Assembly: GCA_903823025.1 (NCBI GenBank)
Contig: CAIJRK010000023.1
Span: 1-64,000, forward strand
Length of the DNA stretch: 64,000 bases
Source of the DNA: an uncultured beta proteobacterium
GTDB taxonomy: Bacteria > Pseudomonadota > Gammaproteobacteria > Burkholderiales > Burkholderiaceae_C
Direction of reading: 5' to 3'
Positions 15,975 to 29,349 of the stretch are shown piece after piece. The notes below the pieces were generated by a model that did no database searches, had not been told where the DNA came from, and was given only the letters and a program-made list of their open reading frames with translations. Position 1 is the stretch's first letter. Every line of letters starts with the position of its first letter. The translations under genes and the position numbers were made by a program.

Positions 15975-16229
15975 ATGACGCACATCAGCGCCAACGATTT
16001 AAAGACTAAAGGTATTGCCGCCATCGAGTTCGCGCTCAGCACGGCGCCCGAAGCTATTGTTTCTGTGCGGGGCAAAGACCGGTTTGTGGTGATGGATATG
16101 GCGCATTACCACTATCTGCGCGAATGTGAGCTGGATGCCGCGCTGGCCGAAACCCGCGCCGACCTGGCCGCTGGCCGCGCAGTGCAAGAGTCGCCCGAGG
16201 CCCACCTGGCGCGGCTGGACGCGCTGTGA
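15975..16229 (+). CDS. Phd/YefM-type antitoxin
   Basis: An 84-residue antitoxin. THISANDLKTKGIAAIEFAL and VSVRGKDRFVVMDMAHYHYL match the Phd/YefM N-terminal DNA-binding fold; the tail LAETRADLAAGRAVQESPEA is the toxin-binding region seen in many RelB/Phd proteins. It is preceded by AAGAGGCC and overlaps the toxin start by four bases. A decayed copy of its tail is at 15391-15452. Confidence 0.85.
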   Translation: MTHISANDLKTKGIAAIEFALSTAPEAIVSVRGKDRFVVMDMAHYHYLRECELDAALAETRADLAAGRAVQESPEAHLARLDAL

Positions 16230-16516
16230 GCGCAGCGCCGATGCCGTTTGCCCTGCTGTTTACCGAGCAATACAACCGTCGGGCCGCCAGGTTTTTGAAG
16301 CAGCACCCGGAGTTGCGCAGCACTTATCTCAAGACGCTCCAGTTGCTGGAGGCGAACCCCGCGCACCCTTCTCTGCGTTTGCATGCCTTGCGTGGCAAGT
16401 TTGACGGCCTGCATTCGGTGTCGATCAGCTTGTCATACCGCATTACGTTGGAGCTGCTGATTCAAGACCAACAGATCATCCCGGTGAATGTGGGTGACCA
16501 TGACGCGGTTTACTGA
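16226..16516 (+). CDS. RelE/YafQ-type ribonuclease toxin
   Basis: Predicted ribosome-dependent mRNA endonuclease toxin of the RelE/ParE fold, about 96 residues. FTEQYNRRAARFLKQHPEL, LRLHALRGKFDGLHSVSIS, SYRITLEL and the C-terminal VNVGDHDAVY fit the YafQ/RelE group, in which a late histidine is catalytic. It starts at GTG 16226, overlapping the antitoxin TGA; ATG 16241 is an alternative. A piece of a second toxin gene with nearly the same end lies at 18053-18118. Confidence 0.83.
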   Translation: MSAAPMPFALLFTEQYNRRAARFLKQHPELRSTYLKTLQLLEANPAHPSLRLHALRGKFDGLHSVSISLSYRITLELLIQDQQIIPVNVGDHDAVY

Positions 16517-16603
16517 TTAGTTGACGCGACTGGCCGTGAGTAGCTCTTTAATTGATAGCTTCTCACGAAGGTATTACGCTGGCCAGAGCCTGATTTGGCT
16601 TGA

Positions 16604-16918
16604 GTTTTCAGTTTTTCCCGTTTTCAGCGCCTTCTTGAATTTCTTCAAATCCGCAGCACTGAATCCGCAAGACAAGCATGGCTTGCTGAAGTCACCCACG
16701 TCTCGAAACACGGGTTCTGGCTGCTCCTGAATGAAGAGGAGCTATTGGTTCCCTTTGAGCATTTTCCGTGGTTCAAACACGCCAGCATCGAGCAGCTGAC
16801 CGATGTTCTATGGCCTACGCCCGATTACCTCTATTGGCCTCAACTTGACGCGGATCTGTCAGTCGAGTCCATTCGCGATCCATCGGCGTTTCCGCTGGTG
16901 TCGCAGGCCGCGAATTAG
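16604..16918 (+). pseudogene. DUF2442-type protein without a start codon
   Basis: From about 16688 the frame reads EVTHVSKHGFWLLLNEEELL, then VPFEHFPWFKHASIEQL and ends YLYWPQLDADLSVESIRDP, a clear DUF2442-type protein. The frame is open from 16604 but holds no ATG, GTG or TTG before the conserved region, so the gene's beginning is lost or frameshifted. DUF2442 genes commonly pair with DUF4160 genes in TA-like operons; no DUF4160 gene is present here. Confidence 0.68.
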
Positions 16919-16973
16919 GACTGTGTCCTTCTCTGTCCTCCAATGAGCATCGCTGGTTAAAGCGTACTCGTAG

Positions 16974-17176
16974 TCGAGGGTCACATCGCGGCTTATGCTC
17001 ATCACGCGGCCGCCAGCCGTGGCATTGCCCAACTGTTCGCCGATGTCAGTCTCACCGCCGAGCCATTTTTCACAAAGAGCGGCTTTGTGGTCGCGGCGCG
17101 TCAGCGGGTTGAGGTACGCGGCGTCGTTCTGGCAAACGCGCGGATGTGCAAGGAACTGGCTGCTTGTTACTCTTGA
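16974..17176 (+). pseudogene. Decayed partial copy of the GNAT gene
   Basis: The sequence TCGAGGGTCACATCGCGGCT onward matches the intact GNAT gene from 15078. It then skips about 90 bases and continues, almost identical, from the region around 15193 to the end (TGCAAGGAACT), with a new tail and stop at 17174-17176. The N-terminal half and the acetyl-CoA loop are missing, so it is nonfunctional. Confidence 0.85.
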
Positions 17177-17180
17177 TTTA

Positions 17181-17206
17181 ATTATTACGGCAGATTGCCG
17201 GATAAT
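17181..17206 (+). promoter_or_regulatory. Imperfect inverted repeat, likely operator of the TacA/TacT pair
   Basis: ATTATTACGGCA and TGCCGGATAAT form an inverted repeat with one gap around GAT. It lies just before the AAGGAG ribosome site of the antitoxin gene, where DUF1778 antitoxins usually bind. Confidence 0.5.
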
Positions 17207-17227
17207 GACGTTTTGAAGGAGTTCGCC

Positions 17228-17506
17228 ATGCCACCAGTAGCCACCGCACGACTTGAAGCGCGGATCAGCGTTGATCTGCACGCCACCCTCAAACGCGCCG
17301 CCGAGTTGCAGGGGCGAACGATGACGGATTTTGTGATTACTGCGGTGCAAGAGGCGGCGCAGAAAGCCATTGAACAGGCTGACATCATCCGCTTGTCATT
17401 GGCCGACCAAGCGTGTTTTGCGCAAGCGCTGCTGTCGCCACCTGAACCAACGCCCGCGTTGCAGCGCGCCTTTGCCCGTCGTCAAAAGCTCTTGCAGTCC
17501 CAATGA
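17228..17506 (+). CDS. DUF1778 (TacA-like) antitoxin
   Basis: A 92-residue ribbon-helix-helix antitoxin: ARLEARISVDLHATLKRAA, then GRTMTDFVITAVQEAAQKAI, the DUF1778 signature. The C-terminal part binds the partner acetyltransferase toxin. ATG 17228 follows AAGGAG at good spacing; the frame open back to 17195 crosses the operator. The stop codon overlaps the toxin start (ATGA). Confidence 0.88.
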   Translation: MPPVATARLEARISVDLHATLKRAAELQGRTMTDFVITAVQEAAQKAIEQADIIRLSLADQACFAQALLSPPEPTPALQRAFARRQKLLQSQ

Positions 17507-18015
17507 GCGCACCGTTTGCGCTGGCCCGATTACAGAGTTCACATGACCGCACGGTATTCAAAAGTGGCTCGGAGTCGCTGGACTACTATTTCAGGCAGCA
17601 GGTCACGCAAGACGTTCGTCGCCGCGTGACGGCCTGCTATGTGGCGCTCACGGCAGAGCCGCGCATTGCCGGGTTTTACACGCTGGCATCGGCGGGTTTG
17701 CTGCTTTCGGATTTGCCCGCGAGTGTGAGCAAAAAGCTTCCGCGCTATCCCAGCGTCCCGGCTGTGCGCATGGGGCGTCTGGCCGTTGATGTGGATTTCA
17801 AGGGTTTGGGCTTGGGCGGCGCCTTGCTGGCCGACGCGCTGGACCGGGCCATTCGCTCCGACATTGCCGCTTATGCCCTGGTAGTGGATGCCAAGGACGA
17901 GTCAGCGGCCGCTTTTTATCGGCACCATGGCTTGATTGCCTTGCCTGACCAACCCATGACCTTGTTTGTGCCGCTGGCAACTGCACGTCGCGCAGGCGCG
18001 GGTCTGGCAAGGTAG
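17503..18015 (+). CDS. TacT-like GNAT toxin
   Basis: A 170-residue GNAT protein of the TA class that acetylates the amino group of charged tRNAs and blocks translation. HDRTVFKSGSESLDYYFRQQ is the characteristic start, VRMGRLAVDVDFKGLGLGG holds the acetyl-CoA loop, and ESAAAFYRHHGLIALPDQPMTL ends the fold. It overlaps the antitoxin gene by four bases. Its role as toxin follows from family and partner. The last 15 residues (ATARRAGAGLAR) look like extra sequence added at a junction. Confidence 0.87.
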   Translation: MSAPFALARLQSSHDRTVFKSGSESLDYYFRQQVTQDVRRRVTACYVALTAEPRIAGFYTLASAGLLLSDLPASVSKKLPRYPSVPAVRMGRLAVDVDFKGLGLGGALLADALDRAIRSDIAAYALVVDAKDESAAAFYRHHGLIALPDQPMTLFVPLATARRAGAGLAR

Positions 18016-18052
18016 CCTTGAGGTGTTCAAAATGCTTGGCACCACGGCTTCG

Positions 18053-18118
18053 GCGCTGCTGATTCAGGCGCAGCAGATCATCCCGGTGAACGTGGGTGAC
18101 CCTGACACGGTTTATTGA
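18053..18118 (+). pseudogene. Remnant of a RelE/YafQ toxin C-terminus
   Basis: The frame reads ALLIQAQQIIPVNVGDPDTVY and stop, matching the end of the intact toxin at 16226-16516 (ELLIQDQQIIPVNVGDHDAVY). Only the last 21 codons remain, and the late histidine is replaced by proline. Confidence 0.72.
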
Positions 18119-18225
18119 TGTAGTCAACCGTTGCCCGACCGTGTGTGTTCCAGCTTTGCCGTTCAAGGCGGCGACAATCGTCCCTTCACGGATGACCGAC
18201 CCCAAGGCCACCCCTTCTTAACCTA

Positions 18226-18495
18226 ATGAGCAGCAACATGACCCAAGATTTGAATTCACAGAACGACGTTAAACAGCCTGAGCTTTGCGATTCGTGTGCG
18301 GGCATCCAGCGCAACTGGCGCGGTGCCCCCGGCCATCCCGAACTCATGCAAGGCACCAACCGCACAGAACCGCGTAACCACGGTCAGGCCGTCATTACCC
18401 AGTACCGCTGCGAACGTTGCGGCACCGTGTGGGCATACGAGAACAACAAGATTGATCTCCACGCCGGTTGGTCCGTGGTGGGGCAATCCGAATGA
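18226..18495 (+). CDS. Small zinc-ribbon-like protein of unknown function
   Basis: An 89-residue protein with two CxxC pairs, C21-D-S-C24 and C62-E-R-C65, spaced as in a zinc ribbon. The second is followed by GTVWAYENNKIDLHAGWSV. A start at the internal ATG 18238 is also possible. The stop overlaps the ATG of the following glutathione S-transferase gene (ATGA), so the two are co-translated. No family with a known function was recognised. Confidence 0.65.
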   Translation: MSSNMTQDLNSQNDVKQPELCDSCAGIQRNWRGAPGHPELMQGTNRTEPRNHGQAVITQYRCERCGTVWAYENNKIDLHAGWSVVGQSE

Positions 18496-19181
18496 CCGCT
18501 TTAAACGCCTTTGCGATCACCCACAAGTGGCCCGCCCTGCATCCTGAGCGACTGCAGCTTTACTCGCTGCCCACGCCGAATGGCGTCAAGGTGTCGATCA
18601 TGCTGGAAGAAACCGGCCTGCCTTATGAGCTGCATACCGTCAGCTTTGAGGCCCGCGAGCAACTGTCGCCAGAGTTTCTCTCACTCAATCCCAACAACAA
18701 AATTCCGGCGATTCTCGACCCAAACGGGCCGGGTGGTGAACCACTGGCGCTTTTCGAGTCCGGTGCAATTTTGCTTTATCTGGCTGAAAAGACCGGCCAG
18801 TTTCTCCCGCAGGCAGGGGCGGCGCGGTACGAGACGATTCAGTGGCTGATGTTTCAAATGGGCGGCATTGGCCCGATGTTTGGTCAGGTGGGTTTTTTCT
18901 ACAAATACGCAGGCAAAGACTTTGAGGACAAGCGCCCGCTTGCGCGTTACGTGGCCGAGTCCCAGCGTCTGCTTGGCGTGCTGGACCAGCGGCTTGCCAG
19001 TCGCGACTGGCTGATGGGTGACACCTACACCGTGGCTGATATCGCCATCTTCCCGTGGGTGCGCTGTCTGACCGAGTTTTACGAAGCGGGTGATTTGGTG
19101 GGTTTGCAGGATTTCCCGCATGTGACGCGGGCGCTGGCGGCGTTTGTGGCGCGGCCAGCGGTGGTGAGGGGGCTTGCCTGA
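18492..19181 (+). CDS. Glutathione S-transferase, YfcG/YghU-like
   Basis: A 229-residue cytoplasmic glutathione transferase. LYSLPTPNGVKVSIMLEET near the start carries the Asn used by the Ure2p/YfcG-type class for glutathione activation; NPNNKIPAI holds the cis-proline, and FESGAILLYLAEKTG completes the glutathione site. The all-helical C-terminal domain includes WLMGDTYTVADIAIFPWV. Members often act as disulfide-bond reductases. ATG 18492 overlaps the preceding stop. The host makes glutathione through gshA and gshB in this window. Confidence 0.9.
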   Translation: MTALNAFAITHKWPALHPERLQLYSLPTPNGVKVSIMLEETGLPYELHTVSFEAREQLSPEFLSLNPNNKIPAILDPNGPGGEPLALFESGAILLYLAEKTGQFLPQAGAARYETIQWLMFQMGGIGPMFGQVGFFYKYAGKDFEDKRPLARYVAESQRLLGVLDQRLASRDWLMGDTYTVADIAIFPWVRCLTEFYEAGDLVGLQDFPHVTRALAAFVARPAVVRGLA

Positions 19182-19198
19182 AGCCCTCCTGACTGTTT

Positions 19199-19420
19199 TT
19201 AGGCAGCGACGCTGGCTTTGAGCAAGATGGCGTGAAGCTGGTCTTTTAATTGCAGCTTTTCTTTCTTGATAATTTCAATTTCTTCAGGCGTGCCCATTTC
19301 AATGCCTGCTTCCAGGTTTTTGACTTTTTGATCCAGCTCATTGTGTTTGTCAAACAAACGAATGAAATGGTTGTCAGTGGTCTTCAGTTGTGTGATGAGG
19401 TCGCGGTATTCAGGAAACAT
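19199..19420 (-). CDS. YdcH-family (DUF465) small protein
   Basis: A 73-residue, highly charged, helical protein: MFPEYRDLITQLKTTDNHF, then IRLFDKHNELDQKVKNLE and EEIEIIKKEKLQLKDQLHAIL. This matches DUF465/YdcH, short coiled-coil proteins with no known enzymatic role. AAGGAG precedes the start on the minus strand. It is convergent with the glutathione transferase gene. Confidence 0.85.
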   Translation of the reverse strand: MFPEYRDLITQLKTTDNHFIRLFDKHNELDQKVKNLEAGIEMGTPEEIEIIKKEKLQLKDQLHAILLKASVAA

Positions 19421-19768
19421 GGAAACTCCTTGTTGATGGGTTGAGATTTTTTGATTTCAGGGTTAGATCAGCCTTGGCCGATCACGCCTCACATGATACT
19501 AAAACCGGGTTCAACAGCAGCCCGTGGAATTCCCGATAGAACTGTTGGGCGAAAGGATTTCTTCTCCCCTTTCTCCTTTTCTTCTCCTTTTCGCGTCTAA
19601 GTGTTTCCCCTAGGTTTGTCATGTTTGAGTCAGCTTGGCTGGTTTTATAAGTTAACTGTAAGGCGCTGTTGCAATAGTTACCCCGCAATGCCGCAACACT
19701 GATTGCGAAATGTCACGTTGTAGCGATTTATTTCGCTGCTGTCTCATTCCTACATTCAAGGAGGTTTC
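19421..19768. other. Intergenic region before the symporter operon
   Basis: 348 bases without a credible gene. It separates the minus-strand YdcH-like gene from the plus-strand symporter operon and must hold both promoters. A polypyrimidine stretch (CTTCTCCCCTTTCTCC, about 19559) is conspicuous. The last bases carry a strong AAGGAGGT ribosome site. No riboswitch-like structure was recognised. Confidence 0.5.
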
Positions 19769-20029
19769 ATGAAGGAAGACTTAAGCAGTCAGGCCTACTG
19801 GAAAGCAACAATTCGCTTGCTGACCAAAATTCTCATTATCTGGTTCGTCATGTCATACGGGGCGGGCATTCTGTTCGCTCCCTTGCTCAACAACTTCTCA
19901 CTGGGCGGTTATCCGTTAGGTTTTTGGTTTGCCCATCAGGGCTCTATGTACATCTTTGTAATACTGATTTTTTATTACGCCAAAAAGATGAATGATCTTG
20001 ACCGTCGGTTCGACGTACATGAAGACTAA
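19769..20029 (+). CDS. DUF4212 small subunit of a Na+/solute symporter
   Basis: An 86-residue protein with two membrane segments (about 18-40 and 53-72), containing WFVMSYGAGILFAPLLN and PLGFWFAHQGSMYIFVILIF, the DUF4212 pattern. These small proteins are encoded directly before the VC_2705-type Na+/solute symporters and are thought to be their partner subunit. A strong AAGGAGGT site precedes the ATG. The symporter gene starts 10 bases after its stop. Confidence 0.9.
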   Translation: MKEDLSSQAYWKATIRLLTKILIIWFVMSYGAGILFAPLLNNFSLGGYPLGFWFAHQGSMYIFVILIFYYAKKMNDLDRRFDVHED

Positions 20030-20039
20030 GGACTAAATC

Positions 20040-21845
20040 ATGGATCTTCAAACCACTATCTACATCGGTGTCGGTCTGAGCTTTGCGCTCTACATCGCCA
20101 TCGCTATCTGGGCGCGTGCCGGGTCAACCAGTGAGTTCTATGCCGCAGGCGGCAGCGTGCACCCGGTGGCCAACGGCATGGCCACGGCGGCTGACTGGAT
20201 GTCGGCGGCCTCCTTCATTTCCATGGCGGGTTTAATCGCCAACATGGGGTATGGCGGCGGCTTGTTTTTGATGGGCTGGACCGGCGGCTACGTGCTGCTG
20301 GCCATGTTGCTGGCTCCCTACTTGCGCAAGTTCGGCAAGTTCACGGTGCCGCAATTCATTGGCGACCGCTTCTACTCCAAGAGTGCCAGCATGGTGGCGG
20401 TGTTCTGCTTGCTCACCGCTTCGCTGACCTACATCATTGGTCAGATGACGGGCGTGGGCGTGGCCTTCTCGCGTTTCTTGGGTGTCTCCAGCGAAACCGG
20501 TATTTATGTCGGCATGGGCATTGTGTTTTTGTACGCCGTGTTTGGTGGCATGAAAGGCATCACCTACACCCAGGTGGCGCAATACGTGGTGCTGATTCTG
20601 GCCTACACGGTGCCCGCTATCTTCATCTCGCTGCAACTCACGGGCAATGCAATTCCGCAACTGGGTCTTGGCTCCACCATGAGCGGCACTGACGTTTCGT
20701 TGCTGACCAAGCTTGACATGGTTGTCACGGATCTGGGCTTTGGCCAATACACCACCACCACGGCGGGCAGTACCTTGAACATGTTCATGTACACCTTGTC
20801 GCTGATGATTGGGACGGCTGGCTTGCCACACGTCATCATGCGATTCTTTACCGTGCCAACGGTCAAGGACGCCCGTTCTTCCGCTGGCTGGGCGCTGGTT
20901 TTCATTGCCATTCTCTACACCACGGCACCCGCTGTGGCCGCTATGGCGAAGATCAACCTGCACAGCACGGTTAACACCGCCGTGATGACAGGTGGCGACT
21001 TGTACGCCGCTGATGCCAGCATCAAGGCTGAAGATCGTCCTGCTTGGATGCTGCGTTGGGAAAAAACCGGTTTGCTCAAGTTTGAAGACAAAAACGGCGA
21101 TGGTCGCATTCAGTACTACAACGATGCCACGACCAATGAAGTCGCCAAGGCCAAGGCCGAAGCGGCTGGCTGGCAAGGCAACGAGTTGAGCGTGAATCCC
21201 GACATCATCGTGCTGGCCAACCCTGAAATCGCGATGTTGCCCAACTGGGTGATTGCGCTGGTTGCAGCGGGCGGTATGGCGGCGGCGTTGTCCACAGCGG
21301 CGGGTTTGCTGATGGCTATTTCTTCAGCGGTTTCACACGATTTGATCAAGAAAATCTTCGTTCCTGAAATTAGCGAAACGAATGAGTTGCGCGCTGGCAA
21401 GATATCCATGGCGGTGGCGATTGTGGTGGCGGGCTGGCTGGGCTTGAATCCTCCGGGATTTGCCGCAGGCACGGTGTCGCTGGCCTTCGGGATTGCCGCG
21501 AGTTCGCTGTTCCCGGCGATCATGATGGGCATTTTCAGCAAAACGATGAACAAAGAGGGCGCGATTGCCGGCATGTTGGCAGGCCTGTTTATCACGCTCT
21601 TCTATGTGTTTGCACACAAGGGTCTGTTCTTTGTGGCGGGCACCAGCTTCTTGCCGCTGATCGGTGGCGCCAATAGCTTCTTTGGCATCACGCCAGAGGC
21701 CTTTGGTGCAGTGGGTGCCATGTTTAACTTCCTGGTGGCGTTTATCGTCTTCAAGATGACCAAGGCAGCCCCTGACTACATTCACGACATGGTGGAGGCG
21801 GTTCGCATTCCACGCGGTTCCAAATTGGTGGATGGATCGCATTAA
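20040..21845 (+). CDS. Na+/solute symporter, VC_2705-type (ActP-like)
   Basis: A 601-residue SSS-family transporter with about 13 membrane segments, probably taking up acetate or another small carboxylate with sodium; the exact substrate is inferred. AAGGSVHPVANGMATAADWMS near 35-55 is the typical Na+/substrate region. An unusual loop at residues 350-362 reads DKNGDGRIQYYND, an EF-hand-like calcium-binding pattern, inside a hydrophilic insertion of about 100 residues (300-400). It is downstream of its DUF4212 partner and upstream of two hairpins that may partly end the transcript before the signalling genes. Confidence 0.9.
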   Translation: MDLQTTIYIGVGLSFALYIAIAIWARAGSTSEFYAAGGSVHPVANGMATAADWMSAASFISMAGLIANMGYGGGLFLMGWTGGYVLLAMLLAPYLRKFGKFTVPQFIGDRFYSKSASMVAVFCLLTASLTYIIGQMTGVGVAFSRFLGVSSETGIYVGMGIVFLYAVFGGMKGITYTQVAQYVVLILAYTVPAIFISLQLTGNAIPQLGLGSTMSGTDVSLLTKLDMVVTDLGFGQYTTTTAGSTLNMFMYTLSLMIGTAGLPHVIMRFFTVPTVKDARSSAGWALVFIAILYTTAPAVAAMAKINLHSTVNTAVMTGGDLYAADASIKAEDRPAWMLRWEKTGLLKFEDKNGDGRIQYYNDATTNEVAKAKAEAAGWQGNELSVNPDIIVLANPEIAMLPNWVIALVAAGGMAAALSTAAGLLMAISSAVSHDLIKKIFVPEISETNELRAGKISMAVAIVVAGWLGLNPPGFAAGTVSLAFGIAASSLFPAIMMGIFSKTMNKEGAIAGMLAGLFITLFYVFAHKGLFFVAGTSFLPLIGGANSFFGITPEAFGAVGAMFNFLVAFIVFKMTKAAPDYIHDMVEAVRIPRGSKLVDGSH

Positions 21846-21870
21846 GGGTGCTGTGCCCCTTTGACTAGAC

Positions 21871-21938
21871 CGCCCGCCGCTTGACTGTGGCGGGCGTGAC
21901 AATCAAAGCCCTGCCAGCTATGCTGACGGGGCTTTTTT
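21871..21938 (+). terminator. Two hairpins, the second a rho-independent terminator
   Basis: CGCCCGCC (21871-21878) pairs perfectly with GGCGGGCG (21889-21896). A second hairpin (AAAGCCC with GGGGCTT, 21905-21934) is followed by six Ts. Together they probably end or attenuate the symporter transcript before the downstream membrane and kinase genes. Confidence 0.8.
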
Positions 21939-21957
21939 ACTGAAATAGGAGATTCGC

Positions 21958-22311
21958 ATGGTATTTGATGTCAGTGTCGCTTTGACATGGATTCTGTTTT
22001 TAGCGTTATTTCCCATTGCCTTTTTCTGGCTGCGCCGGGCTTGGCGCATTGTGTCGCAACGCGATTTCTCTGAAGTCGGCCTCAAGCATGGCCGGCACCC
22101 GCCTCATCCGGAAAAGTTTGCCCCTTATGAGATGGCTATCAATTTGGTCGCTGGCGTGGTGGTGGTTTCAGTGATTGCAGCGGTGCTGCTGGGTGAGCTG
22201 GATTACAGCACCTGGAGCGCCATCGCAGGCAGCACGATCTGGTGCAAGTTCTTCGCCAGCTTTGCGCTGTCACGTCACGCCCATGCGGGTTTGGCCAAGT
22301 CGAAGGCCTAA
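21958..22311 (+). CDS. Small inner-membrane protein of unknown function
   Basis: 117 residues with two membrane segments (about 7-27 and 61-82), a basic first loop (RRAWRIVSQRDFSEVGLKHG) and a hydrophilic end. AATAGGAGATTCGC precedes the start. It lies between the symporter terminator and the CbrA-like kinase gene, so a role in that sensing module is a guess from context only. No family recognised. Confidence 0.65.
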   Translation: MVFDVSVALTWILFLALFPIAFFWLRRAWRIVSQRDFSEVGLKHGRHPPHPEKFAPYEMAINLVAGVVVVSVIAAVLLGELDYSTWSAIAGSTIWCKFFASFALSRHAHAGLAKSKA

Positions 22312-22322
22312 GAGTTTTCATC

Positions 22323-22535
22323 GTGTTCAAAGGACTGGGGGCACAGCGTCGGGTGGCTTTGTTTGTGGGCGGCTGGTTGCTGTTTAACTTTCCGCTGCTG
22401 GGGCTGTGGGACCGCGAAACCACCTTGCTGGGCGTGCCGTTATTTCCGGCGGCCCTGTTCCTGCTTTGGGGTGGGTTGATTGCCGTCTTGGCCTGGCTGA
22501 TGGAGCGCCCCGGTCAGCCGCTGCAGGACGACTAA
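22323..22535 (+). CDS. Very small membrane protein before the sensor kinase
   Basis: 70 residues from GTG 22323: VFKGLGAQRRVALFVGGWLL, with two hydrophobic segments (about 12-26 and 32-57) and a short polar tail. It ends two bases before the kinase ATG, so it is probably co-translated with it. Small two-helix proteins often precede SSS-type transporters and kinases in this position. The GTG start is the only plausible one after the previous stop. Confidence 0.6.
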   Translation: MFKGLGAQRRVALFVGGWLLFNFPLLGLWDRETTLLGVPLFPAALFLLWGGLIAVLAWLMERPGQPLQDD

Positions 22536-22537
22536 CC

Positions 22538-25306
22538 ATGCTCTCGCCCGTGGTCGTCATCGGTGCCTCGTTTGCTTATCTGCTGCTGCTTTTTGCGGTG
22601 GCTTACTTTGGCGATTGGCGGGCCACACAGGGCCGCTCGGTCATTGCAAACCCCTGGACTTATGCGCTCTCGCTGGCGGTGTACTGCACTGCGTGGACAT
22701 ATTTTGGCAGCGTCGGGCGGGCCGCCTCGGGCGGTATTTGGTTCTTGCCCATTTATCTGGGGCCGACGCTGGCGATGGTGATGGGCTGGATGGTGCTACG
22801 CAAGATGATCCGCATTGCCAAGGCCTACCGCATCACCTCGATTGCCGACTTCATTGCCAGTCGCTACGGCAAAAGCCCATTGCTGGCCGGGCTGGTCACG
22901 TTGATTGCGGTGGTCGGCATCCTGCCTTATATTGCGCTGCAACTCAAGGCCGTGTCGGCGGGTTATGGCTTGCTCACGGCCCCCGGCGGCTTGTTGGCGC
23001 CGACCCCGCCGCTGCACTGGAGCCGTGACAGCACCTTTTATATGTCACTGGCGCTGGCCGGGTTTGCCATGGTGTTTGGCGCTCGCCATCTCGACACCAC
23101 CGAGCGCCACGAAGGCATGGTGGCCGCGATTGCCTTCGAGTCGGTCGTCAAACTGGTCGCCTTTATGGCGGTGGGTTTGTTTGTGGTGTATGGCCTGTTT
23201 GACGGGCTGACCGACTTGTTTGCCCAAGCCCAGGCCGTGCCCGATATTGCCAGGCTGTTGCGTCTGGATCAGGGCGGTGGCTTTGCCTGGGCGCAGTGGT
23301 TTGCCATGATTTTGTTGTCGATGCTGTCGGTGATTTTTTTGCCACGCCAGTTTCAGGTGATGGTGGTTGAGAACGTGCATGAACGTCATTTGCGGCGCGC
23401 CGTTTGGGTCTTTCCGCTGTACCTGCTGCTGATCAATTTGTTTGTGTTGCCGATTGCTTTAGGCGGCTTGCTGTATTTTGGGACGGGCACGATGAATGCC
23501 GACAACTTTGTGCTGTCGCTGCCGCTGGCGGCAGACCAGCACGCGCTGGCCTTGTTTGCTTTTATTGGTGGCCTGTCGGCGGCCACCGGCATGGTGATTG
23601 TGGAGACCATTGCGGTGTCCACCATGGTCAGCAACGAACTGGTGATGCCGCTGTTGCTACGCACTCGCCACTTTCACCCCAACGCCGGGCGCGACTTCAG
23701 CGGCGTGCTGCTGGGAATTCGCCGGGCGACCATTCTGGGTGTGCTGGTGTTGGGTTACGTGTATTTTCATTTAGCGGGCGAAGCCTACGCGCTGGTCAGC
23801 ATCGGGCTGATCAGTTTTGCGGCGGTGGCGCAATTTGCCCCGGCGGTGCTGGGCGGACTGTACTGGAAAGGCGGCACCCGGCGCGGCGCGCTGGCCGGTT
23901 TGCTGGCCGGTTTTCTGATGTGGATTTACACCTTGATGCTGCCCTCGATTGCCAAGTCGGGCTGGTTGGCCACCGATTTTTTAACACAAGGGCCGTGGGG
24001 TTTGACGCTGCTGCGCCCTGAACAGTTGCTGGGCTTGCAAGGGCTGGACGGGTTGACGCACTCTCTGTTCTGGAGTTTGCTGGTGAATGTGGTCGCCTAT
24101 GTTGGCTTGTCACTCTGGCGCGCGCCCTCTGGACAAGAGGCCAGCCAGGCGCTGCTGTTTGTGGATGTATTTCAGCGCAAGACGGCCTCCAGTCCGGTGT
24201 TCTGGCGCGGTCAGGCCAAAGTGCCCGACCTGATGCGCTTGTGTGAGCGCTTTTTAGGCGCCGCCAAAGCACGCACCTTGTTTGAGACCTATGCCCGCCA
24301 ACGCGGCTTGCGTCAGGTTGAGTCGATTCGGGCGGACGCGCATTTGGTGCAATTTGTTGAAACCCAGTTGGCCGGCGCCATGGGCAGCGCCTCGGCGCGG
24401 GTGCTGGTGGCCTCGGCGGTAGAGGAAGAAGCGCTGACGCCTGAAGATGTGCTGCGTATTCTGGACGAAGCCTCGCAGGTGCGCGCTCATTCCCGCGAGA
24501 TCGAAGAAAAATCGCATTCGCTGGAGCGGGCCACAGCGGAGCTGCGCCAAGCCAACGAGCAACTCAAAAGCCTGGACCACCTCAAAGACGATTTCATGTC
24601 CTCCGTCACGCACGAACTGCGCACGCCGCTGACCTCCATCCGGGCACTGGCCGAGTTGATGCGGGACGAGGTGGCCATGCCTTTGCCACAGCGCCAGCAG
24701 TTTCTTGACATCATCGTCGCCGAAGCCGAGCGCCTGTCGCGGTTAGTCAATCAGGTGCTGGATTTGGCCAAGATTGAATCGGGTCACGCCGAGTGGCACA
24801 CCACCGAGGTGGATTTGCCCGCGCTGGTGAAACAGGCCGTGACCACCACGGCGGAGATGTTCCGTGAGCGTCAAACCACGGTTGAGGTGTCGCTGCCCGC
24901 CCAGGCGCCACCGCTAATGGCCGATGCTGACCGTTTGATGCAAGTCATGCTGAATCTGCTCTCCAACGCGGCCAAGTTTGTGCCCGTGCCCGGTGGTCGG
25001 GTCGGTGTAAGTTTGACCTGTGACGATGCAGGGTTCACGGTGGCGGTGCAAGACAATGGCCCAGGTGTGACGCAGGCGCAACAAGGCTTGGTTTTTGACC
25101 GGTTTTGTCAGGGTGGGGATGCCGCCAACCGACCTCAGGGCACGGGGTTGGGACTGCCTATCAGTCGCCAGATAGTTGAGCATTTTGGAGGCCGCCTGTG
25201 GCTGGAATCACAACCGGGGCAAGGCGCCTGCTTTAAGTTTCAACTGCCGCGCGATGGCACGCCAGCCGCCCAGATCGTCCAACAAGACCTACAAAAAACA
25301 ATTTAA
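22538..25306 (+). CDS. CbrA-like sensor histidine kinase with an N-terminal Na+/solute-symporter domain
   Basis: About 922 residues. Residues 1-490 form an SSS-family symporter domain of about 13 helices (CTAWTYFGSVGRAASGG, ITSIADFIASRYG). A linker and coiled coil (about 640-685) lead to HisKA with the phospho-accepting H692 in SVTHELRTPLTSIR. HATPase_c has an N-box near 805 (MLNLLSNAAKF) and G-box GTGLGLPIS near 868. CbrA-type kinases couple solute transport or binding to control of carbon use. ATG 22538 is chosen because the frame upstream overlaps the small gene before it. A response regulator gene begins 14 bases downstream. Confidence 0.92.
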   Translation: MLSPVVVIGASFAYLLLLFAVAYFGDWRATQGRSVIANPWTYALSLAVYCTAWTYFGSVGRAASGGIWFLPIYLGPTLAMVMGWMVLRKMIRIAKAYRITSIADFIASRYGKSPLLAGLVTLIAVVGILPYIALQLKAVSAGYGLLTAPGGLLAPTPPLHWSRDSTFYMSLALAGFAMVFGARHLDTTERHEGMVAAIAFESVVKLVAFMAVGLFVVYGLFDGLTDLFAQAQAVPDIARLLRLDQGGGFAWAQWFAMILLSMLSVIFLPRQFQVMVVENVHERHLRRAVWVFPLYLLLINLFVLPIALGGLLYFGTGTMNADNFVLSLPLAADQHALALFAFIGGLSAATGMVIVETIAVSTMVSNELVMPLLLRTRHFHPNAGRDFSGVLLGIRRATILGVLVLGYVYFHLAGEAYALVSIGLISFAAVAQFAPAVLGGLYWKGGTRRGALAGLLAGFLMWIYTLMLPSIAKSGWLATDFLTQGPWGLTLLRPEQLLGLQGLDGLTHSLFWSLLVNVVAYVGLSLWRAPSGQEASQALLFVDVFQRKTASSPVFWRGQAKVPDLMRLCERFLGAAKARTLFETYARQRGLRQVESIRADAHLVQFVETQLAGAMGSASARVLVASAVEEEALTPEDVLRILDEASQVRAHSREIEEKSHSLERATAELRQANEQLKSLDHLKDDFMSSVTHELRTPLTSIRALAELMRDEVAMPLPQRQQFLDIIVAEAERLSRLVNQVLDLAKIESGHAEWHTTEVDLPALVKQAVTTTAEMFRERQTTVEVSLPAQAPPLMADADRLMQVMLNLLSNAAKFVPVPGGRVGVSLTCDDAGFTVAVQDNGPGVTQAQQGLVFDRFCQGGDAANRPQGTGLGLPISRQIVEHFGGRLWLESQPGQGACFKFQLPRDGTPAAQIVQQDLQKTI

Positions 25307-25320
25307 AAAGGAGACACATC

Positions 25321-25695
25321 ATGCGTCAAAAAATACTGGTAGCCGACGACGAACCCAATATCGTGATCTCGCTGGAATACCTGTTCAAGCGCGAAGGCTA
25401 CACCGTCCTGTTAGCCCGCGACGGCCAGGAGGCGCTGGACATGATTGCCAGCGAAAAGCCCGATTTGGTGTTGCTGGACGTGATGATGCCTAAAAAAACA
25501 GGCTTTGAGGTCTGCCAGGCGGTACGGGCCAATGAGGTCTTGCAGGCGACAAAAATTCTCATGCTCACCGCCAAAGGGCGCGACACCGACATCAGCAAAG
25601 GGCTGGCGCTGGGCGCTGACGCCTACATGACCAAGCCGTTTTCAACCCGCGAGTTGGTGCAAAAAGTAGCCGCCATGTTGGCGGGCCAGCCATGA
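25321..25695 (+). CDS. Receiver-only response regulator
   Basis: A 124-residue CheY-like receiver with no output domain. The acidic pair is D9/D10 (VADDEPN), the phosphorylated aspartate is D53 in LVLLDVMMP, T83-region LMLTAKGRD carries the switch Thr, and K105-region YMTKPFS the conserved lysine. It should take phosphate from the CbrA-like kinase just upstream and act by protein contact. Its stop overlaps the ATG of the following pseudokinase-exonuclease gene (ATGA), which makes that protein an obvious candidate partner. AAAAAGGAGA precedes the start. Confidence 0.94.
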   Translation: MRQKILVADDEPNIVISLEYLFKREGYTVLLARDGQEALDMIASEKPDLVLLDVMMPKKTGFEVCQAVRANEVLQATKILMLTAKGRDTDISKGLALGADAYMTKPFSTRELVQKVAAMLAGQP

Positions 25696-27869
25696 AAGTG
25701 GATCGCCGACTACTTCTGTCCATTGCGGGCGTGGGGCTGGGACTGGCCGCCTGGCTGGGCTTTACCGTCGCGATGGTTTGGTCCACGCTGGCGCTGGCTG
25801 AACGCGAGGCGGTGGGCGCCATACTCAACTCCCGGCTGGCGTTGCTGGGCTTGAGTTGGGCGCTGGCCCTGATGCTGGCGGCCTCGGTGTTGCGCGTGCT
25901 CTATTACCGCTATGCAGGCGCCCCGGCGCGCTTGCTGGAAGAAACCCGCGTCTTGCTGGCGGCCACGCAGCCGCAGCAATTGGTGCCGCGCGGCAGTGCT
26001 GAAATTCAGGCGCTCACGCAAGCGATTAACGACCTGGCAGCCCAGCGCGACCACCTGCGTCAAGACGTGAGCCAAAAAATCGCGCAAGCCAACCTGAGCG
26101 TGCAGCAAGAAAAAAACCGACTCGCCGCGCTGATGTCCGAACTCACCCAAAGCGTCGTGGTGTGCAATCTGGATGGCCGGATTTTGCTCTACAACAGCCG
26201 CGCCAAACTACAGTTTCGGGCTTTGTCCAATGCGCCCGCGTTGGCCGATGGTGCCGAGTTGATTGGCATTGGACGCTCGATTTATGCCGTGTTTGATCGT
26301 CAGTTGGTCGCGCACGCGCTGGAGACCATTCATCAGCGCATGGGGCGTGGCTTGGCTAGTCCGTCAGCGCAGTTTGTGACCACCACCCGCAGCGGTCAAT
26401 TGCTGCGCGTGCAAATGGCTCCGGTGCGAACCGGCGAGGACGAGGTGCCTTTGTCGGCAGGCGTCAGTGGCGTCAGCGGCTTTGTGCTGATGCTCGACAA
26501 CGTGACGCAGGCCTTTGAAGAGGAGAGTTTGCGTGACCAGTTGCTGCACGGCCTGACCGAACGCAGTCGCTCCTCGCTGGCCAATATGCAGGCCGCCGTG
26601 GACATGCTCGCCTATCCCGATCTGGACGCCGATATGCGCACCCGTTTTCTGACGGTGGTGCGTGAAGAGGTCAGCGCGATGAGCCTGCGAATCACCGATT
26701 TAGCGCAACGGGCCACGCTCGGTCTCAAGACCCGCTGGCCGCTGGAAGAAATGCTTGGCGCCGACTTTTTGTTGGCCGCGCAACAACGCATCAAAACCGA
26801 AAGCCAGCGGCCAGTCTCGCTCACCGACGTGGCGACTTCGGTCTGGTTGCGCGTGGACAGCTACAGCTTGATTCAGGTTTTGAGCTATCTGGCCTGTCGG
26901 CTGGTGGATGAGTTTGATGTCAGGTTTTTGCAATTGCGCCTGCAAGTGGTGGGCGAACGCGCCCAGCTGGATCTGATCTGGAGCGGCCACGTCATGAGCA
27001 CCGAAACTGTGATGTCCTGGGAGATGGATGCCATGCGCTTTGGCGCTGAGAGTACACCGCTGACGGTGCGCGACGTGGTGGCGCGTCATGGCGGCGAGAT
27101 GTGGTTTGAGCGCGAGCGCACCCGCCACGAAGCCTTCTTTCGCTTTTTGCTGCCGCTGGCCGATGCGCAAGCGCAGTTGGCGGCGACCCAACTCATGCAA
27201 ATTGACAGCCGTCCCGAGTACTACGACTTTGACTTGTTCAAAGTGACGGAGCAGGGCAGTGTGCTCGATGACCAGTTGCTCACTGCCTTGTCCTACACCG
27301 TGTTTGACACCGAAACCACGGGCCTGAATCCTTCGGACGGCGACGAGATTATTCAAATTGGTGCGGCGCGCATTGTGAATGGCAAGTTGCGTCGGCAAGA
27401 AAGTTTTGAACAACTGGTGGACCCGGAGCGGTTGATTCCGGCGGCCTCCATTCCGATTCACGGCATCACGCAAGAGATGGTTCAGGGCAAGCCGTGCATC
27501 GGTGAAGTGCTGCCGTCGTTTCACACGTTTGTGCAAGACACGGTGCTGGTGGCACACAACGCCGCCTTTGATATGAAGTTTTTGCAGCTCAAGGAGGCGC
27601 AAACCGGTCTGGTTTTTTACCAGCCGGTGCTTGACACCTTGTTGTTATCAGCAGTGGTGCATCCCAATCAAACCTCGCACCGGCTGGAAGCCATTGCCGA
27701 GCGGTTAAACATCACGGTGTTGGGGCGACACACCGCGTTAGGCGACGCTATCGTGACCGCCGAGGTGTGGCTGCGGCTGATTCCGCTGCTCAACGAGATG
27801 GGCATTCACACCCTGCGGCAAGCGCGGGAAGCGGCGCAAAAAACCTATTACGCCCGCATTAAATACTGA
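25692..27869 (+). CDS. Membrane protein with degenerate histidine kinase fused to a DEDDh 3'-5' exonuclease
   Basis: 725 residues. Two membrane segments (about 7-30 and 48-68) are followed by a helical linker, a PAS-like region (about 145-265), a region that aligns with HisKA-HATPase_c (about 280-495), and a DnaQ-like exonuclease (about 535-705). The kinase part has lost key residues: the usual histidine position is E290 (TERSRSSLANMQAAV), the N-box reads VLSYLACRLVDE without Asn, and the glycine box is gone. The exonuclease set is complete: D539 and E541 in FDTETTG, D627 in AAFDMKF, H680 and D685 in HTALGDA. It overlaps the response regulator stop. Substrate DNA or RNA is unknown. Confidence 0.88.
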   Translation: MKVDRRLLLSIAGVGLGLAAWLGFTVAMVWSTLALAEREAVGAILNSRLALLGLSWALALMLAASVLRVLYYRYAGAPARLLEETRVLLAATQPQQLVPRGSAEIQALTQAINDLAAQRDHLRQDVSQKIAQANLSVQQEKNRLAALMSELTQSVVVCNLDGRILLYNSRAKLQFRALSNAPALADGAELIGIGRSIYAVFDRQLVAHALETIHQRMGRGLASPSAQFVTTTRSGQLLRVQMAPVRTGEDEVPLSAGVSGVSGFVLMLDNVTQAFEEESLRDQLLHGLTERSRSSLANMQAAVDMLAYPDLDADMRTRFLTVVREEVSAMSLRITDLAQRATLGLKTRWPLEEMLGADFLLAAQQRIKTESQRPVSLTDVATSVWLRVDSYSLIQVLSYLACRLVDEFDVRFLQLRLQVVGERAQLDLIWSGHVMSTETVMSWEMDAMRFGAESTPLTVRDVVARHGGEMWFERERTRHEAFFRFLLPLADAQAQLAATQLMQIDSRPEYYDFDLFKVTEQGSVLDDQLLTALSYTVFDTETTGLNPSDGDEIIQIGAARIVNGKLRRQESFEQLVDPERLIPAASIPIHGITQEMVQGKPCIGEVLPSFHTFVQDTVLVAHNAAFDMKFLQLKEAQTGLVFYQPVLDTLLLSAVVHPNQTSHRLEAIAERLNITVLGRHTALGDAIVTAEVWLRLIPLLNEMGIHTLRQAREAAQKTYYARIKY

Positions 27870-27886
27870 GGTGCCGCGAGCCAAAA

Positions 27887-27906
27887 GGCCGGTGTTAAAA
27901 CCGGCC
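27887..27906 (-). terminator. Hairpin at the end of two convergent genes
   Basis: GGCCGGT pairs with ACCGGCC around a short loop; on the minus strand it is followed by TTTT. It lies over the stop codon of the minus-strand CBS-DUF294 gene and 18 bases after the plus-strand exonuclease gene. Confidence 0.5.
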
Positions 27907-29349
27907 CGACTGGTAGCGTCCACCCAGCACGCCTTGCAGGGTTTGAACCACTGAGAAAGCATTTTTAAGGTGACTGCGTTCCAGATTGGAGAGTTCGTCG
28001 AGCGCCAGAAAGTTGTCAGGCGCCTGACCTTTGGCGGTTTGGCGCGCTTGGTGGGCAATGCGCAGTTTGCCTAAAAACTCCAGTGCATCGCGCAAGTCGC
28101 GCGCGCTTTGTGCGCTCACCTCGCCCTCATTGGCCACGCCTTCGAGCCGGTCATGCGTGTTGACCGCCGCCACGCCACCGGCCAGCGCATAAACCCGGGC
28201 CAAGTCAACGATAGGCACGATGCCAGTGTGCTTGAGATCAATGGTGCGGGGGTTTTCACCGCCGCGCGTAGGAGAAATGCTGCCAAACAGACCCAGTGGC
28301 GGGCGGTGTTTGAGCGCATTGTTGACCATGTGCGCCAGAAAAAGACTGTTGCCCTTAGTGCGCGAGAGCACCTCTTGACGCAGTGAGTCCAGCAGCGCGG
28401 TTTTGCCATAAATGGCGCGCTGGTCAAAGAACACGCAGGTCAGCATCAGCGCTGTCGGCTCGGGGACAGTCACCCACTTTAAAAAATACTGTGCCCATTG
28501 CTGGCGCGGCTGGCGCCAGGTGTCAGTCATGGCCATCATCTCGCCGGGACAGTGGATGTAGCCGCAATCGGCTAGCCCGTCGCAGACAAACTTTGAAAAA
28601 ACGCGGAAGTAGTCGCCGTGCAAGACCGGGTCAAAGGTGTCATCGAGAATCAGGCAGTTGTCCTGGTCGGTTTTGGCGCTTTGTTCGCTGCGCGCCTGCG
28701 ACCCGGCGGCCACCCAGACATAGTCAATCGGGGCCGGGCCAAACTTGAGTTCAGCGAGTTGGATGAGGCGCACGGTGATCGCATCGGTGATGGCGGTGAC
28801 GATGTGCCCGGTGCTGTAGGCGCTGGTGTCAGCGGCGGCCAGATTTTGCTGCAACTGCGCGACTTTGGCGCTGATGCGGGCCAAGCCCTCAACCGTGGTT
28901 TGCTTGTAAATGTCGCCCACCAGATAAACGGCGGAGGTGCTGTGTTGCTCGGTCAGGTCGGTGGCGGTGATCATGCCCAGCAGGCGCTGGCCGTCCATCA
29001 CCGGCACATGATGAATGTTGTGGCGCGCCATGAGCAGCAGGGCTTCAAAGGCGGGGCTGTTGGCGGCTACGGTCATGGGGTTCAGGGTGGCAATGTCGGC
29101 CACCGCGCGCGCACTGTCCAACCCTTGCGCCACCACCCGATTGCGCAAATCGCGGTCGGTGACCAGTCCGACCAGCCGGTCCTGCGCCACCAGCAACACC
29201 GAGGACACCCGCAAGTCACGCATCAATTCGGCGGCGGCGCGAATGGAGGTGGTGGGCGCCAGAGTAATCGGTTCGCGCCTGATCAGGGTGCGAATCGGCG
29301 TGCCCAGCAGATTGACGGCTGTCGTGTCGGAAAGTGGATTCAGAGTCAT
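27895..29349 (-). CDS. CBS-pair protein with DUF294 nucleotidyltransferase-like domains
   Basis: 484 residues. Two CBS motifs (about 15-135: PITLAPTTSIRAAAELMRD, IHHVPVMDGQRLLGMITATD) form an adenine-nucleotide-binding module. Then comes a DUF294-type nucleotidyltransferase-like domain with GSQARSEQSAKTDQDNCLI near 220-238, where the DQD acids are the presumed metal ligands, and a helical C-terminal domain. Many relatives also have an N-terminal cyclic-nucleotide-binding domain; here it is absent. Such genes are often near VC_2705-type symporters and DnaQ-like exonucleases, as here. The target of nucleotidyl transfer, if any, is unknown. Confidence 0.88.
   Translation of the reverse strand: MTLNPLSDTTAVNLLGTPIRTLIRREPITLAPTTSIRAAAELMRDLRVSSVLLVAQDRLVGLVTDRDLRNRVVAQGLDSARAVADIATLNPMTVAANSPAFEALLLMARHNIHHVPVMDGQRLLGMITATDLTEQHSTSAVYLVGDIYKQTTVEGLARISAKVAQLQQNLAAADTSAYSTGHIVTAITDAITVRLIQLAELKFGPAPIDYVWVAAGSQARSEQSAKTDQDNCLILDDTFDPVLHGDYFRVFSKFVCDGLADCGYIHCPGEMMAMTDTWRQPRQQWAQYFLKWVTVPEPTALMLTCVFFDQRAIYGKTALLDSLRQEVLSRTKGNSLFLAHMVNNALKHRPPLGLFGSISPTRGGENPRTIDLKHTGIVPIVDLARVYALAGGVAAVNTHDRLEGVANEGEVSAQSARDLRDALEFLGKLRIAHQARQTAKGQAPDNFLALDELSNLERSHLKNAFSVVQTLQGVLGGRYQSGRF

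Follow-up and report, generated by a model that had tools for sequence, protein, structure and literature searches.

The VC_2705-type sodium/solute symporter encoded in the window (the whole 64,000-nucleotide stretch of DNA that was analysed) carries a near-invariant set of metal-ligand residues in the outer loop between core helices TM7 and TM8. The best explanation, and in our judgement probably the right one, is a Ca2+ clasp of the Dx[DN]xDG type on the periplasmic face that orders the EL4 lid. Its putative ligands are D350, N352, D354, the backbone carbonyl of R356, and E382, which would be brought back to the ion from 26 residues downstream. Bound Ca2+ would link the stretch that follows helix 335-343 with the one leading into TM8, and the lid would keep one shape while the transporter cycles. 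We infer Ca2+ as the metal, constitutive binding and a mechanical role. Sites of this kind are known, but the place is new; here the site is split, and in one branch a pair of cysteines appears to have replaced it naturally.

The large subunit (601 amino acids; positions 20,040-21,845, forward strand) matches the TIGR03648 profile with 795.7 bits against a curated cut-off of 320.75, which makes it a member of the family. The adjacent gene directly upstream, the second mark of that membership, encodes the small subunit (DUF4212/TIGR03647, 86 amino acids; 19,769-20,029, forward strand), which scores 110.9 bits with TIGR03647 (cut-off 26.05) and 115.1 bits with PF13937. The VC_2705 family, defined by TIGR03648 together with TIGR03647/DUF4212, is thus the protein's own. 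Within the full text of the open-licence literature, TIGR03648 was found only in riboswitch-candidate work on the region upstream of the small-subunit gene, and no description of a calcium loop in the VC_2705 family or in the SSS lid was found there; an account elsewhere is possible.

Nucleotides 21,087-21,125 (forward strand, as are all features below) translate as DKNGDGRIQYYND, residues 350-362 of the open reading frame 20,040-21,845. An earlier note had described this segment as an EF-hand-like loop with acidic or Asn side chains at positions 1, 3 and 5 and Gly at position 6, inside a hydrophilic insertion, and the translation bears out that pattern. D350-K-N352-G-D354-G355 (21,087-21,104), conserved by column in the alignment of close homologues, form calcium-loop positions 1-6, and R356, I357, Q358 and Y359 (21,105-21,116) form positions 7-10, with Ile, Val, Leu or Met at position 8. 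The loop is then split by a clade-specific insert, residues 360-380 (21,117-21,179), which is absent from relatives with a contiguous loop and holds a short helix (367-375) in the AF2 model. The order is consequently D350 to Y359, 21 extra residues, then N381-E382-L383. The conserved E382 (21,183-21,185) aligns with the Glu at position 12 of the contiguous loop DINKDGIVQLAE and is the candidate for the bidentate position-12 ligand. It stands 26 residues past the motif glycine, compared with a separation of 5 in the contiguous form, and thus outside the 13-mer described before. The 13-mer is not the whole site, and its D362 was rejected as a ligand, being Asp in just 60 of 77 close homologues. 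Around the site, the AF2 model has residues 383-385 (21,186-21,194) in a short strand just past E382 and, by DSSP, a helix before the loop (residues 335-343; 21,042-21,068) that contains W336 and W340, both invariant in the alignment.

The protein contains a single copy of the motif D-x-[DN]-x-[DN]-G, and 0.006 copies are expected per shuffled protein. A chance motif was rejected on this ground together with the conservation of the site and the control SSF proteins described below. Conservation is the stronger evidence for a real site than motif rarity. Among the window protein and 76 split-loop homologues that are 62-90% identical to it, 76 of the 77 sequences have Asp at 350, as many have Asn at 352 and Asp at 354, and all 77 share G355 and E382, so that the Dx[DN]xDG pattern is conserved. 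Position 357 (loop position 8) is Ile in 70, Val in 4, Leu in 2 and Met in 1. Mean entropy is 1.88 bits over the insert (residues 360-381) and 0.94 bits over the protein as a whole.

The wider sample was assembled by searching with TIGR03648 in 60 genomes, that of the window and those of relatives, and in 299 genomes of its phylum, with at least 30 loci from each search, and by a scan of named contigs. The latter contributed the best 80 of at least 592 confirmed matches (from at least 598 matching stretches) and leans to close relatives: 76 of the 80 are from Pseudomonadota, 3 from Thermodesulfobacteriota and 1 is unassigned. A first pattern search over 141 proteins (61 + 80, the window's included) recovered Asp or Glu at position 1, Asn or Asp at 3, Asp at 5 and Glu at 12 in 138, and the three that it missed (L094, L100 and L143) also carry the loop, L094 as DKDNSG. 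Of 20 loci picked as divergent, 14 have the loop (L163 among them, with Gly at position 12), 4 have a cysteine pair, L151 has none and L152, which falls below the family cut-off, retains a degenerate remnant (VDQNTDNLSIADLE). L005-L008, which are either second fragments of SSF proteins or different SSF proteins, and the partial L116 and L128 were removed before the combined alignment. The ActP-like L003 and L004, L148-L150 and L151, all without the loop, and the sub-cut-off L152 were set aside before the count that follows, which covers 157 family rows.

The earlier note had weighed its proposal against the prospect that ligand positions vary freely among relatives, and an alignment of VC_2705-type symporters finds that they do not. 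Asp or Glu at position 1, Asn or Asp at 3 and Asp or Ser at 5 are kept together in 153 of the 157 rows, and 152 of those also have Glu at 12. Four side-chain positions of an EF loop are thus preserved, which counts for the clasp. By position, the residues are 152 Asp, 1 Glu and 4 Gly at 1; 153 Asn, 2 Asp and 2 Ala at 3; 153 Asp, 1 Ser, 1 Ala and 2 Pro at 5; 149 Gly, 6 His and 2 Gln at 6; and 152 Glu, 3 Asp, 1 Asn and 1 Gly at 12. The four exceptions are L153-L156, whose letters in these columns include two of the Asn at position 3 and one of the Asp at position 5. When L151 and three haloarchaeal proteins without the loop are restored, the proportion becomes 153 of 161. The picture is similar in the 81 rows below 80% identity, with 78 Asp, 1 Glu and 2 Gly at position 1; 79 Asn, 1 Asp and 1 Ala at 3; 78 Asp, 1 Ser, 1 Ala and 1 Pro at 5; 77 Gly, 2 His and 2 Gln at 6; and 78 Glu, 2 Asp and 1 Gly at 12. 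One row, L077, comes from a contig titled Desulfuromonadales, and its symporter is 76% identical to the window's, closer than most gammaproteobacterial rows; either transfer or a mis-binned contig would account for this.

The split form falls in a single clade (support 100, in a tree built without the trait columns and with the clade thinned to 20 rows). Long-form relatives, the sister group, have an uninterrupted 12-residue EF loop, for example DINKDGIVQLAE or DVNKDGILQLAE. Of 153 rows, 27 have 5 residues between Gly-6 and position 12 and the other 126 have 10-68, with no values between 5 and 10. Among the 27 contiguous rows, 26 have Glu at position 12 and 18 read exactly DxNxDGxxQxxE. We also observed a contiguous-loop relative (L163, DVNGDGIVRWAG) that keeps positions 1, 3, 5 and 6 and has Gly at position 12. 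In the 126 rows with the longer separation, Glu at position 12 persists over 5 to 63 extra residues.

The AF2 model of the window protein (77 sequences, mean pLDDT 84.8, pTM 0.86) shows the helix set of an SSS protein, which comes to 13 when residues 151-201 are counted as two, as in the model of a relative with a shorter insert (L117). The best Foldseek matches are CHT1, SGLT1, SGLT2, SiaT, NIS and SMCT1 (SiaT 5nva, TMt 0.79). Both these matches and the aligned Na2 residues identify the SSS fold: phmmer aligns A415, S418 and T419 with A361, S364 and S365 of vSGLT, which we take to be the Na2 site. Since these residues lie in the next helix (residues 402-440; 21,243-21,359), that helix is core TM8, and the loop that forms the insertion links core TM7 to it. 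This outer loop, EL4 (residues 312-401; 20,973-21,242), lies between predicted helices 275-311 and 402-440 and holds the whole insertion.

With the N-terminus outside, as described for SSS transporters (PMC7918813), the TM7-TM8 loop is therefore extracytoplasmic. The charge distribution agrees overall with this placement: inside loops have 17 Lys and Arg and 11 Asp and Glu in 106 residues, and outside loops 11 and 19 in 178 residues. EL4 itself is acidic, yet not poor in basic residues (9 Lys and Arg, 14 Asp and Glu in 90 residues). In SSS transporters this loop contributes to closure of the outward pathway (PMC7918813), and a metal site there would therefore be mechanically meaningful. In PutP, SiaT and vSGLT the equivalent TM7-TM8 loop is EL4; here it runs to about 90 residues and has a metal-type site. 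The main text of the SSS review PMC7918813 contains none of the terms calcium, Ca2+ or EF-hand.

Locally, the model has helix 335-343 and strand 346-348 ahead of the loop, helix 367-375 within the insert that comes next, and then strand 383-385, with pLDDT of 85-92 over the blocks covering residues 341-390. The L117 model (52 sequences, pLDDT 84.2) has the same order, with helix 331-339, strand 342-344, the loop with a short strand at 352-353, and strand 364-367; the window model has one strand or bridge residue, at 356, where L117 has two. Structure prediction, which the earlier note had suggested for the loop, thus gives strand, loop, strand in both proteins and not helix-loop-helix.

The description "EF-hand-like" therefore survives for the ligand pattern and fails for the classical fold, and it had missed the position-12 ligand. 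As in the classical EF-hand of the calmodulin type, the ligands follow one another in the EF order, and 27 of the 153 rows, those of the sister group, have the uninterrupted 12-residue loop. In contrast, the window protein has 21 extra residues within the loop, a helix that ends at 343, strands (346-348 and 383-385) on either side of the loop, and one motif copy rather than a pair. Pfam EF-hand profiles match neither the window protein at E values up to 1, nor seven relatives up to 5, nor six fragments up to 10, bearing in mind that the HMMER filters drop most matches above about 0.1. A classical EF-hand was rejected on the split loop, the predicted flanking strands and the absence of a Pfam match.

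Because short strands flank the loop in the AF2 models, we assign it instead to the Dx[DN]xDG calcium loops. Sixteen structural contexts are described for such loops, with a strong bias towards the periplasm, the cell surface or secretion; known sites are completed by one or more additional acidic or amide ligands, which always follow the motif, at separations of 2-112 (PMC3123361). The window loop resembles them in its six-residue motif, in a later acidic ligand at a variable distance and in its inferred extracytoplasmic location. E382, present in 77 of 77 close homologues, is that later residue and would reach back to the ion; its separation of 26 falls within the published range, whereas in the sister group the spacing is 5, as in an EF-hand. 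A lid of the LeuT fold would be a further context beside those of PMC3123361, the main text of which uses neither "symporter" nor "transporter".

The other SSS proteins examined lack the loop, as the earlier note had supposed in saying that it is no general feature of these transporters. As a control we examined 31 SSF open reading frames, 28 from loci among the matches listed from 30 genomes (the window's own included, at least 30 loci) and 3 from further loci. Eight are family members, of which four have D.[DNS].[DNS]G and four, of a type with His or Gln in place of Gly-6, do not. In all 23 non-family frames examined the motif is absent from the transporter. A match at residue 13 of the 656-residue stop-to-stop frame of L189 was judged, by length, to lie ahead of the real start. 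The loop as a general SSS feature was accordingly rejected, on what is a narrow control.

Several variants within and near the family bear on what the site does. Substitution of Gly-6 by His or Gln marks a second paralogue within the window's genus (L002 and L031-L037, 8 of 8). In the copy from the window's own genome (L002, contig C26), the DUF4212 small subunit is fused to the N-terminal end (PF13937, 61.4 bits) and the motif DxNxDG reads DVNGDH. The loop is absent from L003 and L004, two ActP-like paralogues in the window's genome, from L151, which at 327.3 bits is just over the cut-off of 320.75, and from three plasmid-borne haloarchaeal relatives (L148-L150), each beside a DUF4212 gene. 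One of the latter (L148, 2,405-4,054) belongs to a Haloferax lucentense cluster with the order acs, DUF4212, symporter, usp, which by gene order alone matches that of the H. volcanii acetate transporter (SSF) (PMC7746861). The loopless haloarchaeal relatives and acetate uptake in H. volcanii together indicate that the ion is probably dispensable for the fold in general. L151, the haloarchaeal relatives, the lack of a Pfam EF-hand match and the Gly at position 12 of L163 count against the clasp.

A further variant replaces the motif altogether. In L153-L156, CG-x12-C (that is, C-x13-C) stands instead of DxNxDG. In the two taxonomic families to which these proteins belong (61 and 60 genomes), 15 and 7 genomes have over-cut-off members, one locus each. 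All 20 distinct over-cut-off Cys-loop proteins with a readable segment carry the C-x13-C pair (L153-L156, L209-L217, L219-L222 and L238-L240). The contig of L223 ends after the first cysteine and is not counted among them; L234 and L235, from the same families, have an ordinary split loop, and the sub-cut-off L241 and L256-L258 also have the pair. The cysteines presumably form a disulfide, which would fit as another way to tie the loop in an oxidising compartment. In a quick tree, the Cys form, with the long-branched L152, is nested within the contiguous group (SH-aLRT 97 and 95), with the caveat of long branches and odd composition for L152, L241 and L256-L258. This nesting led us to reject the Cys loop as an independent older lineage, and parsimony favours the calcium loop first and the cysteine pair later.

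That the clasp is kept by nearly all of the close family and apparently swapped for a disulfide in one branch suggests that calcium holds the shape of the lid. Alternatively, the calcium could be regulatory, as the earlier note proposed: the site would be weak and partly empty in nature, and external Ca2+ would alter the transport rate via the lid. We regard this as unlikely. It shares with the clasp the site and its position, the loop is a gate (PMC7918813), so that occupancy could change the rate, and 4 of the 81 non-redundant rows have His or Gln at Gly-6, which might shift affinity. Counter to this, the near-invariance of the site and a cysteine pair that is unable to sense calcium favour a fixed structural role. 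For a near-invariant site facing the periplasm, a structural ion is no worse an explanation than a regulatory ion.

Less probable again is that no metal binds, and that the conserved Asp, Asn, Gly and Glu form a hydrogen-bonded turn capping the strands in EL4. The absence of a Pfam EF-hand match is in keeping with such a turn, as is the fact that no metal has been observed. However, the exact EF spacing of positions 1, 3, 5 and 6, the hydrophobic residue at 8 and a Glu-12 kept across 5-63 extra residues are hard to explain without a shared ion, and the ligands are missing together in the Cys branch. Least plausible is another cation in the loop, whether Mg2+, Mn2+ or a third Na+, since Glu rather than Asp at position 12 (152 of 157 rows) is the Ca2+-type choice. 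One crystal structure does show a Dx[DN]xDG motif with Mn2+ bound, yet outside cells Ca2+ is the more common ion, a point that the same work raises against Mn2+ (PMC3123361).

Returning to the structural clasp, a bolder form of it is conceivable, although we hold it only tentatively. Ca2+ may be an obligatory gating cofactor of the whole symporter subfamily, such that closure of the lid needs the clasp and external Ca2+ sets Na+-driven uptake, with one branch made calcium-independent by its disulfide.

If the clasp is real, the well-studied outer lid of SSS (LeuT-fold) symporters has an ion-locked version in the VC_2705 subfamily. Homologues with contiguous, split, cysteine-pair and absent loops would then be natural controls for a direct test of lid stiffness in alternating access. 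The Dx[DN]xDG calcium class would gain a membrane-transporter context, and the VC_2705 family, so far little characterised, would acquire a biochemical property that can be tested.

The genomic neighbourhood of the symporter was also considered. Downstream lie a sensor kinase with an N-terminal SSS-like region (22,406-25,306; HisKA and HATPase_c, Pfam, given as 22,532-25,303) and a response-regulator receiver protein (25,321-25,695; PF00072, 102.4 bits). The SSS-like region gives a weak TIGR03648 match (C23, 23,477-23,944, E 1.4e-6), and PF00474 is not among the Pfam matches of the kinase (22,406-25,306) at E values up to 1. This arrangement at 22,406-25,695, a kinase with an SSS-like N-terminus and a lone receiver directly 3' of the symporter, resembles acetate regulation of the CrbS/CrbR type and may be analogous to it. 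Deducing the substrate from neighbouring genes was rejected, and no substrate is assigned: the genome's single over-cut-off acetyl-CoA synthetase lies on a different contig, and on the window's own contig a match below the cut-off is about 77 kb away.

On the other side, a long leader (19,182-19,768) precedes the small-subunit gene. A riboswitch candidate (the TIGR03647 motif) has been published for the position upstream of this gene in other bacteria (PMC6429828). Rfam gives no match at the gathering threshold within 16,000-28,000 and no credible match within 19,150-20,060, the region upstream of the symporter, a negative that covers Rfam families only. Further upstream (17,195-18,015), a small DUF1778-like gene is followed by a gene for a GNAT-like acetyltransferase, and by eye the two look like an acetyltransferase toxin-antitoxin pair.
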